Origin: Candidatus Fermentithermobacillaceae bacterium | GTDB lineage: Bacteria > Bacillota > Sulfobacillia > Fermentithermobacillales > Fermentithermobacillaceae | Length of the DNA stretch: 64,000 bases | Assembly: GCA_012842685.1 (NCBI GenBank) | Contig: DUSI01000049.1 | Span: forward strand, 1-64,000 | Reading direction: 5' to 3' | Shown here: in pieces, positions 37,555 through 42,084 of the stretch | How the letters are laid out: every line of letters starts with the position of its first letter | Position numbering within the stretch: the first letter of the stretch is position 1 | Made by a program: the position numbers and the translations under genes | Notes under the pieces: model-generated | The model's input: the letters and a program-made list of their open reading frames with translations, nothing else | Told to the model about the DNA's origin: nothing | Databases searched by the model: none

Positions 37555-37633
37555 GCCGATCGTCCTTTCCAGCCGCTCCTCCGCTCTCTTGAACCTTACA
37601 CACAGAGAGAGCAGCATACTCTTTAGGGATGAA

Positions 37634-37659
37634 AAGGGGTGGGCAAAAAGCCACCCCTT
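37634..37659 (-). terminator. Candidate terminator after the repeat-bearing coat protein gene
   Basis: AAGGGGTGG (37634-37642) and CCACCCCTT (37651-37659) form an exact 9-bp stem. On the minus strand the stem is followed by TTCATCCC, a weak U-run. It lies 25 bp after the stop. Confidence 0.5.
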
Positions 37660-37683
37660 CTCATCACCGTCTAGTCCCTGAGA

Positions 37684-38760
37684 TTACTGGCTCTGCCAGT
37701 TTCCCTGGCTTCCCTGCTGCCAGTTCCCGCGCTGCTCCCGAAGGCCAGACTGCCAGTTCTGCACCGCGTAGCCCTGCTGGAATCCTTGCGGGATCTGGCC
37801 GGGCATGAACCCAGAACCGCCAACGCCTCCCTGTACGGCGCTCATCCCGCCTCTGGCCCAGCTCGGGAGGTTTATGTTCTGGCCGGAGCCGTACTGGCCT
37901 CCAAACCCGGTGCTCCAGCTCGGCTCTCCACCCCAATGGGCAGTCTGAGCGACGCTGGAAGGCCCGAGTCCGCTCTGGCCTTCTCCGTACTGGGTACCGG
38001 TCCAGGCCTGCCTACCGATTACCCCCTGCTGGGCACCAAACGAGCTCTGGCCGCCGTAGCTCCCCTGGGTCCACTGGGGGAGGTTCTGCGTCTCGAGTGT
38101 CCCGTAGGTTTGACCTCCCGCGCCCGTCCAGCTGGGCTGGCCACCCCAGCGGGCTCCATGGGCGAGGCTCGAAGGACCCATGCCGCTCTGTCCTTCACCG
38201 TACTGGGTTCCTGTCCAGGTCGTCCCCTGCCATCCCGAACCACCCTGGGCTCCGAACCCGCCCCTGGCGTAGCTCGGGGCGTTCCCTTGATATCCGCCCT
38301 GGAACTGACCCGTGGGTCCGGTCATCCAGCTCGGCTCGCCGCCCCACTGGGCTCCCCTGGCCACGCTGGATGGCCCCATACCGCTTTGACCTTCCATAAA
38401 CTGAGTCCCGGTCCAACCTGTCTGTCCTTGCTGCATGCTGTTTCCTCCTGTGCTCAAGCTGGAATTAACGGCTTGCCTGGACTGCAAGACCGCGTTTCGC
38501 AGACTGGCTAGAGTGTCCTGGTCCGCCATCCGGACCTGGTACCATCCTCTGGAGTGCAGGTAATCGAAGATGCTTTTTGCAGCGTTGGCCGCATCGGCGT
38601 GGATCTCCTGGAAGGCCGAGCGAAGCCCTTGGTCGGCCGCTTCCAGGATAGCCGGCGCGTAGTAGTAGTTCAAAAGGTGCTTCTGTGTCGCCAGAAGGTC
38701 TTCGGCTATTTCCCGATCCGTGATCTCCCTCTGGATTGAGGATCCCATGACCTCAGGCAC
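37684..38760 (-). CDS. CotF-like spore coat protein with three long Trp/Gly/Gln-rich repeats
   Basis: The 358-residue protein has two parts. Residues 1-100 are a helical CotF/ferritin-like coat domain (EIAEDLLATQKHLLNYYYAP, then IFDYLHSRGWYQVRMADQD). Residues 116-320 are low-complexity Gly, Gln, Ser, Trp and Tyr. They contain three imperfect repeats starting at Trp116, Trp182 and Trp253, each with WTGTQ-x-x-EGQSG-x-GPSS, then W-GG-x-PSW. The tail (317-358) is Gln/Asn-rich. Such aromatic-rich repeats suggest a cross-linked or self-assembling spore surface layer; that is inference. The GTG start (38758-38760) has GGGAGG upstream; ATG 38748 is an alternative. It follows a 60-residue coat-like protein in the same direction. 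Confidence 0.82.
   Translation of the reverse strand: MPEVMGSSIQREITDREIAEDLLATQKHLLNYYYAPAILEAADQGLRSAFQEIHADAANAAKSIFDYLHSRGWYQVRMADQDTLASLRNAVLQSRQAVNSSLSTGGNSMQQGQTGWTGTQFMEGQSGMGPSSVARGAQWGGEPSWMTGPTGQFQGGYQGNAPSYARGGFGAQGGSGWQGTTWTGTQYGEGQSGMGPSSLAHGARWGGQPSWTGAGGQTYGTLETQNLPQWTQGSYGGQSSFGAQQGVIGRQAWTGTQYGEGQSGLGPSSVAQTAHWGGEPSWSTGFGGQYGSGQNINLPSWARGGMSAVQGGVGGSGFMPGQIPQGFQQGYAVQNWQSGLREQRGNWQQGSQGNWQSQ
37820..38415 (-). repeat. Three tandem imperfect in-frame repeats within the coat protein gene
   Basis: DNA units begin near 38415, 38217 and 38004, so the periods are 198 and 213 bp (66 and 71 codons). The unit starts WTGTQ and includes GPSS and W-GG-PSW motifs. Each unit stays in frame, which points to selection at the protein level. 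Confidence 0.8.
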
Positions 38761-38782: not shown

Positions 38783-38965
38783 TCACTTCACATGGCTCGA
38801 TAAGAGGCTCAAGTGCCTTTCACAAGCTCGCTCCAGGTTCTCGATAAGTGCCCTTAGTTTTGGGTCTTGGGCCATCTCCCTGTACGTCGCAAGTTTCCTG
38901 GACATGAGAGTCTCACCCTTTATCGCCTCGCCAAGGTACCACGCCTCGGTCTGGGTGAGTTGCAA
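38783..38965 (-). CDS. Small helical coat-like protein (CotF family fragment-like)
   Basis: The 60-residue protein is helical throughout (EAWYLGEAIKGETLMSRKLA; LRALIENLERACERHLSLLS) and resembles the short ferritin-like CotF/YhcQ-type proteins found beside coat genes. A TTG start at 38963-38965 has GGGAGG nine bases upstream. It is encoded 22 bp before the large repeat-bearing coat protein, likely in the same operon. The function is not known; a role in spore coat assembly is inferred from context. Confidence 0.65.
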   Translation of the reverse strand: MQLTQTEAWYLGEAIKGETLMSRKLATYREMAQDPKLRALIENLERACERHLSLLSSHVK

Positions 38966-39029
38966 TACATGCCACCTCCCTTCCGTCAGCCTTAGAATGT
39001 CTCCTGGACCGTACGCGTATTCCAGCTGC

Positions 39030-40433
39030 CTACACGGACATAGCCCCCGATTCGTCTTCGATGAGCTGCAGGACGACCTGCTCTTTGCCGGTCATGGCGT
39101 TGATATAGACCAGGTAGGTGTCGTTTCCGTTCTTAACCCTGAATTCCCAAGCCATGACCTCCGTGGTAGGAAGTATAGGTATCACGCACAGCCTGGGCTC
39201 GCTGCTTTCCACCTGCAGGTCAGATTTCAGCGCCCTCCGGGCTTCGTCGGGGGAAACGATGGGCGCCCTCAGTATACGTCCGGGATGGCCGTGGGAAACC
39301 AGGTAGTTCATCTGGTCAAAGGATACGATAGCGCCCGTGTCCAGCGAGACTTCTACCTTCACCGTGTCGGGGTATAGCCTGACTTTGACGTTCCCGTCGG
39401 GGGTGCTGACTTCGGTGTGAGGAACGTAGGCGAAGACCACGCGATTTGCCGCCTCGCCCCGCTTTCTCCACCCGGTCTCCTCTAGGCCAGTAAAGTCTTT
39501 GGATCTCAGGAACTCCATCGCCCTTTCCCGCGCCTCGTCGAGACTGATGGCTGCGGCACCCCTCGGGGTGGAGTCGGTCGCCATCACCACCGCTCCTCCC
39601 TGTTTGGCTACAGTGGTGGCTACTTCGCTTCCATCTGGTCTTCTTGCCGTAACCAGGTACGAAGGGATAGCGCCCTCAATCGTGGCAACCGACACGGACT
39701 GGAAAGTCTCTCCCGGACGCAGGAACCCGAGGGCTATCTCCTTGGCCTGTTCTTCCGAAATGAGGGGACCCGGCCGGGCCAGGGCCCTTGCCTCCAGGTT
39801 CTTCTCGGAGAAAGGTCCGTCGTATACCGGCATGGGGATACTCTGGGTGACCTGATCTATCTCTGAGAAGCCGTAGTTCAGGGAGTCTCTGGCGCCTCGG
39901 GGCGTCCCGGCGAAAGCCTTGGCGATCTCCTGGAAAGCGGCCCTTGCGACCCTCGAAGCGCCGACGCTGGCCTGGGCCGTCCTGGCGAGGATTCCCGTCA
40001 GCTCCTTGACGCCCTCTTCGAGCCTTGCCAGTTCTGCCCACTCATCGGGGGTCACGGTTTCGCCCCTCGCCAGCTTCTGCGAAAGCACGAGGGCAAAATC
40101 CCCCACAGTGGCCACAAAACGTCTGGGTCCGGTCAGATCCACCCCGTCTGTCCCCGCCAGGCTCAGTTCGCTGCGGGCCGCCTGGCAGTTCAGCCAGCTG
40201 GATGTCAGGAAGGTTATTTGCTGTCCGGTCGAAGACGCAGCTCGCGCCTTTGCCAGGCCGGCTTCAAGGTTCTCCAGGTAGCTCACTAGATTGAAGAGGG
40301 CTCGCTGTTCGGCGGCCTGCATCCGGAGCCTGGCCGACCGGGCTTCCTTGTACTGGGCGAGACCGAATGCCAAAGACAGCACGGTCACCACGCCAAGCCC
40401 CCAGAGGAGCCACCTCTCTCTCCTGGTCCTCAT
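39030..40433 (-). CDS. ypeB: Germination protein YpeB
   Basis: The 467-residue protein has an N-terminal membrane helix (RERWLLWGLGVVTVLSLAFG) and a helical domain. PepSY-like domains near the C-terminus follow (SEEQAKEIALGFLRPGE; SLDEARERAMEFLRSKDFTG; DEARRALKSDLQVESSEPRL). YpeB stabilises and localises the SleB cortex lytic enzyme in the spore inner membrane. The sleB gene lies 34 bp upstream in the same direction, the classic sleB-ypeB pair. Length matches known YpeB (about 450). Confidence 0.94.
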   Translation of the reverse strand: MRTRRERWLLWGLGVVTVLSLAFGLAQYKEARSARLRMQAAEQRALFNLVSYLENLEAGLAKARAASSTGQQITFLTSSWLNCQAARSELSLAGTDGVDLTGPRRFVATVGDFALVLSQKLARGETVTPDEWAELARLEEGVKELTGILARTAQASVGASRVARAAFQEIAKAFAGTPRGARDSLNYGFSEIDQVTQSIPMPVYDGPFSEKNLEARALARPGPLISEEQAKEIALGFLRPGETFQSVSVATIEGAIPSYLVTARRPDGSEVATTVAKQGGAVVMATDSTPRGAAAISLDEARERAMEFLRSKDFTGLEETGWRKRGEAANRVVFAYVPHTEVSTPDGNVKVRLYPDTVKVEVSLDTGAIVSFDQMNYLVSHGHPGRILRAPIVSPDEARRALKSDLQVESSEPRLCVIPILPTTEVMAWEFRVKNGNDTYLVYINAMTGKEQVVLQLIEDESGAMSV

Positions 40434-40467: not shown

Positions 40468-40926
40468 TCAATAAGCGAAAACGTGGTTGCCTATCTGGGT
40501 CACTATGGCTCTCGTCCATATCCACGGACTTACTGGTTTGTAGGGGTTCCAGAAGAAGGTGCATCCGTAGGTGGGGTCATAGCCGCTCAGGGCCAGCTCG
40601 GCGGCACGGTACATCTCATCCGTTGGATTGGCGCTCCATATCAGGCCGTTTGTCACCGATTCGAAAGCATCAGGTTCATAGATGACCCCTGCTATAGTGG
40701 GCGGAAACTCAGGATGTTTGGTCCGGTTTATTATGACCGCGCCCACTGCGACCATGCCAAGGAAGGGCTCGCCGGTCGCTTCGCCCATGATAACCCTGGC
40801 CAGGAGTTCATACTCGTCGAACCAGCTTTGGGGCGCCGCCAAGGCCCTTGGCATATCGGCCGAGAAAGTAGTCGAAAGAACCACCAGCACCGCCGCTCCG
40901 AAGCACAGAAAAGCCTTGATCCTCAA
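40468..40926 (-). CDS. sleB: Spore cortex-lytic enzyme SleB (catalytic domain only)
   Basis: The 152-residue protein has a signal peptide-like start (AFLCFGAAVLVVLSTTFSAD) and then the SleB catalytic domain. That domain has ELLARVIMGEATGEPFLGMV (catalytic Glu in GEA), AVGAVIINRTKHPEFPPT and FWNPYKPVSPW. SleB is a lytic transglycosylase that degrades cortex peptidoglycan in germination. The N-terminal peptidoglycan-binding domain of B. subtilis SleB is missing, making this a short form. TTG at 40924-40926 is the likely start, with AAGGGA upstream. That ribosome site is part of a 13-bp inverted repeat. Confidence 0.92.
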   Translation of the reverse strand: MRIKAFLCFGAAVLVVLSTTFSADMPRALAAPQSWFDEYELLARVIMGEATGEPFLGMVAVGAVIINRTKHPEFPPTIAGVIYEPDAFESVTNGLIWSANPTDEMYRAAELALSGYDPTYGCTFFWNPYKPVSPWIWTRAIVTQIGNHVFAY

Positions 40927-40929
40927 AGA

Positions 40930-41025
40930 GCATCCCTTCCTCTGCTTGTGGCTCCTACTGTGCCCTTCCGCGTGAAAGAGGCACAGGTTAGGTCCGTGCT
41001 CTTAGAATGCGTGAGGAAGGGATGC
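40930..41025 (-). repeat. 13-bp inverted repeat covering the sleB ribosome-binding site
   Basis: GCATCCCTTCCTC (40930-40942) and GAGGAAGGGATGC (41013-41025) are exact complements, 70 bp apart. In the sleB leader RNA the 3' arm contains the AAGGGA ribosome-binding site of sleB. Pairing would hide it. The region between also has a possible GTGCC/GGCAC hairpin. The left partner begins 6 bp past the mltG stop. Whether it regulates translation or acts as a terminator is unknown. Confidence 0.7.
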
Positions 41026-41031
41026 CGTTAT

Positions 41032-42084
41032 TCAGCGCCCCTGGTAGGTTGCGCGGTTTAGGTTGTGCTCCGCCAGAGTGCGGGCGAAGGCGTGGGTTCC
41101 GTCGTTCTTCGCCACAAAATAGAGGTAGTCCACATCTTCCGGGGCGAGCACCGCCTCGAGGCTCGCCTTGCCGAAATTGCAGATAGGCCCCGGTGGGAGA
41201 CCCGGATACTTATACGTGTTGTACGGGGAATCCACTTCGAGGTCTTTCCAGAGGACAAGGGCGTTCGGAGGCTTTCCCAGGGCGTAAAGCACTGTGGGAT
41301 CCGCGTCCAGCTTCATCCCTATCCTCAGACGGTTCAAGTAGACGGCGGCTATGACCGGCCGCTCCCAGGCCACCTGAGCCTCTCGCTCCACGATTGAGGC
41401 CAGAGTCGCCGCCCCGTGAGGAGTGAGGTTCATAGCTCTGGCCTTCTCCCGCATCTCCTCTGTGAAGACCTCGTCCATACGCTTAAGCATCATGAGGACA
41501 ATGTCTCGTTCGGTCATACCGCGGCGGATGTAATATGTGTCGGGGAAAAGATAGCCCTCCAGCGGGTATTTCGCGGTCTCAAGGTATTCCGCCGGGACGT
41601 AGTCGGGCGCCAAAGATCTATCGGAGGCGGCTTCAAGGAATGCCTCTTTGGTCCCGAAGCCCTTTTCTTCGACAAGGGCCGCGATCTGCTCCACGCTCAG
41701 CCCCTCACGTACCGTGAGCGAGTAGTAGATGACGCGGCCCTCAACCAGGCTGTCCAGCACGTCGCGGATATGGATGCCGGGCCCAAAACTGTACTCCCCC
41801 GACTGAATCAGTCCGTCGGCCCGCTTCATCCTGGCGAGGATCCTGAAAAACAGGTCGCTCCGGATTACTCCCTGCTCCTCGAGGAGCTTTGCCACCTCCC
41901 GGGTGGACATCCCCGGCTCGACCATGACACTGACCGGGCCAGCCGTCTCCGGAAGCGGGCAAGAGCTCAGATATGAGAATATCGAGAGGGATGCCAGAAG
42001 CAGGACAATAAGAAGCCCCAGGCAGTAAATCGCGAGGCGACTTCTGCGGCGGGGGCTTTCCACCTGCGCGCCGGGCGCTCTCAA
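41032..42084 (-). CDS. mltG: Endolytic murein transglycosylase MltG
   Basis: The 350-residue protein has one membrane helix near the N-terminus (LAIYCLGLLIVLLLASLSIF), a LysM-like region (VEPGMSTREVAKLLEEQGVI) and the YceG domain (LEGYLFPDTYYIRRGMTERD; ATLASIVEREAQ with the catalytic Glu). It cuts nascent glycan strands and sets their length. The first residue is a TTG that overlaps the DUF1292 stop; a later start is possible. It follows ruvX and DUF1292, the usual Bacillota order. Confidence 0.93.
   Translation of the reverse strand: MRAPGAQVESPRRRSRLAIYCLGLLIVLLLASLSIFSYLSSCPLPETAGPVSVMVEPGMSTREVAKLLEEQGVIRSDLFFRILARMKRADGLIQSGEYSFGPGIHIRDVLDSLVEGRVIYYSLTVREGLSVEQIAALVEEKGFGTKEAFLEAASDRSLAPDYVPAEYLETAKYPLEGYLFPDTYYIRRGMTERDIVLMMLKRMDEVFTEEMREKARAMNLTPHGAATLASIVEREAQVAWERPVIAAVYLNRLRIGMKLDADPTVLYALGKPPNALVLWKDLEVDSPYNTYKYPGLPPGPICNFGKASLEAVLAPEDVDYLYFVAKNDGTHAFARTLAEHNLNRATYQGR

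Follow-up and report, generated by a model that had tools for sequence, protein, structure and literature searches.

In the window (the whole stretch of 64,000 nucleotides that was analysed), a gene at 37684..38760 on the minus strand encodes a protein of 358 residues, here referred to as the CotF-repeat protein. The open reading frame of the original prediction, which gave no strand, is exact. The gene has a GTG start, preceded here and in several relatives by a GGAGG-like sequence (read by eye), and 13 further genomes of the order to which the uncultured host, known from a 1.89-Mb draft genome, belongs contain orthologues. The protein scores 59.1 bits with the profile PF07875, above the cut-off of 25.7, which places it in the Coat_F family. 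The Coat_F domain occupies residues 14-76 (38533..38721, minus strand), and helices are predicted at residues 15-40 and 44-70, with a third at 81-102. In an AlphaFold2 model built on a shallow alignment (n=14 sequences), three helices lie within residues 15-102; mean pLDDT is 79-86 over residues 11-70 and 55 by residue 100. From residue 101 on pLDDT is <50, and thus the tail is predicted to be disordered, a feature for which the original prediction had suggested a check.

The tail contains 25.9% Gly, 15.9% Gln, 10.4% Ser and 6.0% Trp, and Lys and Cys are both absent (0 each). It is internally repetitive: its best 30-residue self-match has 24 identities, against a maximum of 15 in 200 shuffles of the tail. 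Thus a CotF helical domain is joined to a conserved Trp-, Gln- and Gly-containing repeat tail, as had been proposed. Solved structures searched by sequence yielded no relative of the protein, and among the publications listed by literature searches there was none on it, nor any on a Gln-rich spore coat protein with Trp and repeats. A mobile or phage origin was considered and rejected: plasmids and phages gave no match by BLAST, the low-complexity filter of which may mask the tail, and the module described below had no match in viral contigs.

A small gene encoding a helical protein of 60 residues, sm60 (38783..38965, minus strand), lies 22 bases upstream of cotF. It is preceded on the same strand by genes for the germination protein YpeB (39030..40433; 234.7 bits, short of 303.55, the NCBIfam equivalog cut-off) and for a SleB-like cortex-lytic enzyme (40468..40926; 164.2 bits, short of the 236.5 required). 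Only the catalytic half of SleB is present in the window; it covers positions 87-200 of the 201-position SleB model, and the N-terminal part is missing. The order mltG-sleB-ypeB-sm60-cotF is conserved in 14/14 genomes that carry the module. Next after cotF come galT and glgA in 13 of them, and the contig of the fourteenth stops inside cotF. A strong hairpin whose stem contains, and is followed by, a short T run (37626..37668, minus strand; -30.6 kcal/mol, z -4.19) is a possible terminator of the unit. A simple promoter and terminator scan, which requires 5 T, gave nothing useful and did not list this hairpin.

The CotF-repeat gene follows the occurrence of sporulation genes. Among the 17 genomes of the order returned by the search, SpoIVA was matched in 14, one of these matches being a fragment below cut-off (22.7 bits), and Coat_F was also matched in 14. 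The same 3/17 genomes, all of one genus, are without the module, SpoIVA and Coat_F. As the three are missing together, the CotF-repeat gene goes with sporulation, although the joint absence may reflect a single loss. The genomes concerned (G005, G008 and G010 of genus g3, from the same family) have no SpoIVA or Coat_F match, suggesting that sporulation was lost there. Sporulation has been predicted for Ca. Fermentithermobacillus carboniphilus Bu02 (PMC10215811). Together with the place of the gene beside sleB-ypeB, the co-occurrence bears out the tie to sporulation that had been proposed.

Trp modules and LPxW motifs of the tail

The tail carries three copies of a 30-residue module, spaced 66 and 71 residues apart, at 38326..38415 (66.5 bits), 38128..38217 (70.9 bits) and 37915..38004 (67.9 bits) on the minus strand. 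The consensus is WTGTQxGEGQSGMGPSS[LV]AxxAxWGG[QE]PSW, and the three repeats with their WTGTQ, GPSS and WGGxPSW motifs are as originally predicted. In the module profile, which was built from 19 distinct copies, 12 of the 30 columns are identical across all copies.

A profile search detected the module in 14/154 genomes of the class, all 14 from the host's order, where they span Fermentithermobacillaceae and a second family. It was absent from 137/137 other class genomes searched and from the 3/17 order genomes mentioned above. When 398 genomes were drawn evenly from the phylum, strong matches were seen in two order members only. Three weak matches outside the order from the same draw (E 0.003-0.008, open frames of 26-54 residues) were taken as chance. 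Among the genomes searched, the 30-residue module was thus confined to the order; a repeat common in known coat proteins would have spoken against the original proposal.

The 14 genomes encode 35 full modules, 1-4 per protein, with spacings of 48 to 89 residues. Within the host genus (4 genomes), pN/pS was 0.115 for the modules, 0.147 for the CotF domain and 0.42 for the linkers, ratios that are rough because pS (0.56-0.69) is near saturation. Judged from these substitution patterns, the module is under purifying selection. Copies inside one protein also differ mostly at synonymous sites (pN/pS 0.146), and therefore most of them look old and kept by selection. An almost identical duplication of ~76 residues takes in the first two modules of one protein (L005, genome G001), a recent change in copy number. 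A fourth, partial module (its first 20-21 residues) is seen near the C-terminus of this protein and of L003. In six others (L007, L008 and L012-L015, from genus g4 and G004), a GTGWQPxYSQ-like stretch stands before most modules and LPxW is absent.

A second, shorter motif, LPxW, occurs in the same tail as LPQW (residues 227-230; 38071..38082, minus strand) and LPSW (residues 298-301; 37858..37869, minus strand). LPxW motifs, with A or T as the usual next residue, are present in the tails of 7/14 order members and absent in the other seven, one of which is cut by a contig end. CotF tails of the class were also inspected beyond the order, at 33 loci (L016-L021, L107-L133) selected among matches in 61 genomes; one duplicate and two loci without a CotF frame leave 30 distinct proteins, for which some absences were read by eye. 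Five of the 30, from five other families, contain [LI]PxW, and by eye each has an sm60-like gene directly upstream of its CotF gene. When the same tails were shuffled, the observed LPxW count was reached in 0/2000 shuffles for the nine tails that carry at least two motifs; for the three single-motif tails it was reached between 2 and 39 times in 2000. In a search of 398 genomes, 318 had a CotF match; LPxW was found in 0/15 long CotF proteins from other classes chosen among the matches listed, one listed protein of similar length having been left out.

The tail had been likened to self-assembling, possibly crosslinkable proteins. Its composition and predicted disorder do suit self-association; assembly itself we infer. 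Crosslinking by the known spore transglutaminase Tgl finds no support, since Tgl was found in 0/17 genomes of the order.

sm60 and a predicted ferritin-like fold

No Pfam match above cut-off was obtained with sm60 alone. When 18 sm60 proteins were combined into a profile, it matched residues 1-58 in 15/15 two-domain (fused) CotF proteins, of which 9 belong to the order and 6 to other parts of the phylum, and sm60 is thus homologous to their N-terminal half. In the fused proteins both halves are carried on one chain, which argues that sm60 and the CotF-repeat protein pair. One fused relative was folded and is predicted to form a four-helix bundle (pTM 0.70). In Foldseek searches with the fused form, bacterioferritin, Dps-like and related proteins scored best and the spore coat protein BH2358, a solved structure, lower, the best E value being 0.0015 and none being <= 0.001. 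The N-terminal half of fused CotF also matches Rubrerythrin (Pfam) in the two proteins scanned, and the CotF helices match the encapsulated ferritin EncB weakly (E 0.13). Thus the Coat_F helices would most likely pair with the sm60 product into a ferritin-like four-helix bundle with a decayed metal site.

The proposed decay concerns residues that would bind metal. A Glu and an ExxH motif are kept in both halves of 15/15 fused CotF proteins. In sm60 the Glu of the first ExxH is Cys in 16/18 and His in 2/18 proteins, and at the second ExxH the CotF-repeat proteins retain neither Glu (0/14) nor His (0/14). The split pair keeps the His of the first ExxH (15/18) and the lone Glu of each half (18/18 and 14/14). 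With three of the four ExxH residues lost, it falls short of the ferritin-like diiron ligand set; some metal binding by the residues kept may be possible. Judged from fold and motif, the fused CotF proteins would bind two metal ions and the split pair would no longer do so. The CotF family may thus descend from diiron proteins, or still consist of them. One of the 15 two-domain proteins with both E/ExxH sets is encoded in the host's own genome (L002, contig C48 near 201 kb).

Candidate promoter signals and the possible site of action

A forespore-type promoter sequence, GAATA-N18-CATTCTA, is located in the gap between ypeB and sm60 (38993..39022, minus strand). The pattern GAATA-N18-[CA]ATnnTA is conserved upstream of sm60 in 14/14 genomes of the order, whereas dinucleotide shuffling gives an expectation of 0.0004 per sequence. 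For the most part the spacer and flanking bases vary, except for two invariant Gs just before the -10 element. The consensus letters for the forespore factors sigma-F and sigma-G are those we take to apply, derived from distant organisms, and they may not be the host's. According to PMC3789822, sigma-F and sigma-G promoters resemble each other and are told apart by a G ahead of the -10 and an A behind it. At the sm60 site the upstream G, the sigma-F mark, is invariant, and the downstream A, the sigma-G mark, is seen in only 5/14 genomes. The conserved site fits either of these factors and suggests a candidate promoter from which the unit of sm60 and CotF-repeat gene would be expressed in the forespore.

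A like sequence, GAATA-N19-CATTCTA, lies upstream of sleB (41003..41033, minus strand), where the pattern was found in 9/14 genomes. This count is low partly because the pattern demands [CA]AT at the -10; of the five misses, four read AACTCTA there and in the fifth the start is misplaced (by eye). No forespore-type site was found directly upstream of cotF (0/14) or galT (0/13). In the host's own genome the narrow pattern occurs at 1 site against 2 in a reversed control, and a wider pattern at 5 sites against 4, two of the five being the sm60 and sleB sites and three lying inside long open frames. As the pattern is not rare within this genome, the case for a promoter rests on cross-genome conservation. 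Outside the order, only 1/8 distinct loci read (L016, L017, L018, L020, L107, L108, L109 and L111) has a forespore-type site upstream of sm60; it is GAATA-N17-CATCCTA at L108, a member of one of the LPxW families. The five two-domain CotF genes of the order that were read have neither a forespore-type nor a CATAnnnT site. GCATG-N17-CATAATA was noticed by eye upstream of an alpha/beta SASP gene, and this observation stands outside the evidence.

The reading that we prefer, and in which belief and doubt are about evenly balanced, is a structural protein made in the forespore, paired with sm60, that networks inside the spore through multivalent Trp stickers. In keeping with it, SleB is described as a forespore product and SleB and YpeB as encoded by a conserved operon (PMC13393411). 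The anatomy of the protein, its conservation and selection, the synteny, the co-occurrence with sporulation genes, the promoter footprint and the homology of sm60 to the fused half are shown by the data, whereas forespore expression, pairing with sm60, self-association and location we infer. The predicted disordered, Gly/Gln-rich tail bears 1-4 near-invariant Trp modules and, in some lineages, LPxW. These elements would act as stickers, binding either to one another or to a shared partner, and would give a network or gel. Its site might be the core, the inner membrane or the vicinity of SleB and YpeB. A more specific form of this reading is held only tentatively: a degenerate split ferritin-like pair would anchor a forespore-made gel or condensate of Trp stickers, in which LPxW recurs across several families of the class, the WTGTQ module having been added in one order, and which would serve as an internal matrix and not as coat.

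The principal alternative is the one proposed originally, a coat protein produced by the mother cell, with a tail that self-assembles to form an outer layer of the spore. The Coat_F family does include true coat proteins (the cotF products of B. subtilis and C. difficile), a tail rich in Gly and Gln is suitable for coat material, and a loose mother-cell-type -10, CATA-N2-3-[TA], is found upstream of sm60 in 4/14 genomes. Against this stand the forespore-type promoter, conserved in every one of the 14 genomes, and the encoding of cotF together with sleB-ypeB. The stricter mother-cell-type -10, CATAnnnT, was seen in 0/14 upstream regions of sm60, a weak negative since only 0.055 per region are expected by chance. 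Because of the promoter footprint the outer coat was dropped as the leading reading, and we now consider it unlikely.

Slightly less probable again is an accessory role for SleB and YpeB, in which the protein would tether or stabilise the cortex-lytic pair at the inner membrane or help to time germination. The invariant sleB-ypeB-sm60-cotF neighbourhood and the like promoter type before sleB (9/14) speak for such a role. A parallel is offered by GerG, a gel-forming spore protein described as required for germination regulators to be incorporated (PMC5241399). According to PMC13393411, SleB and most of YpeB sit outside the inner membrane, yet neither the CotF-repeat protein nor sm60 is strongly hydrophobic anywhere along its chain (19-residue hydropathy at most 0.44 and 0.10, respectively). 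Further, YpeB was not detected (tblastn, E <= 0.01; flanks of up to 1.5 kb) in four class outgroup loci in which sm60 was detected.

The forespore-type promoter and the Gly/Gln-rich tail devoid of Lys and Cys would also fit a storage protein of the core, degraded for amino acids at germination. The likeness of such a tail to gamma-SASP is our assumption. A protein of this kind needs neither a near-invariant module amid drifting linkers nor a conserved helical domain, and we regard a storage role as improbable. Neutral repeat expansion without function, to which the variable copy number and the duplication in G001 might point, is very hard to reconcile with the low pN/pS of the module and with its persistence as 35 full copies in two families, and can be set aside.

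If the preferred reading of a network inside the spore is correct, the tail would provide a defined, testable sequence for solidifying the interior or inner membrane of the dormant spore, as well as a natural sticker module of compact size, its lineage being described as thermophilic. A Coat_F domain alone readily earns a protein the label 'coat'. Here the domain belongs to a conserved unit that lies next to sleB-ypeB and has a forespore-type promoter, and the label may mislead on the site of action.

Comparison with known systems

GerG of C. difficile resembles the CotF-repeat protein in being a lineage-specific spore protein with low-complexity repeats of variable number. It is linked to germination and forms gels in vitro, and the CotF-repeat gene adjoins the germination genes sleB and ypeB. 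The repeats of GerG are rich in Asn and Met (GMPNNMSNNMNSNM) and the protein is under sigma-E control; the likeness was drawn from its description only, in which no Coat_F domain is named and the gel-forming repeats are reported to be dispensable for function (PMC5241399).

The predicted fold of the fused sm60-CotF relative is like that of ferritin-like four-helix proteins (bacterioferritin, Dps, EncB and BH2358). The split sm60/CotF pair differs from these in lacking the second ExxH and the Glu of the first.

A further comparison is with the CotF/Coat_F family itself (B. subtilis cotF, yhcQ, yraD, yraF and yusN; C. difficile CotF), which has the same domain and is likewise linked to sporulation. 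Unlike these members, the CotF-repeat protein has a separate sm60 gene and a C-terminal tail of Trp modules. Its forespore-type promoter also sets it apart from B. subtilis cotF, described as dependent on SpoIIID and likely on sigma-E (PMC517825), and from C. difficile cotF, placed in the sigma-K regulon (PMC3789822). YraF, listed as a member of the cotF family (PMC3533761), is called forespore-specific in PMC7352945, in line with the preferred reading.
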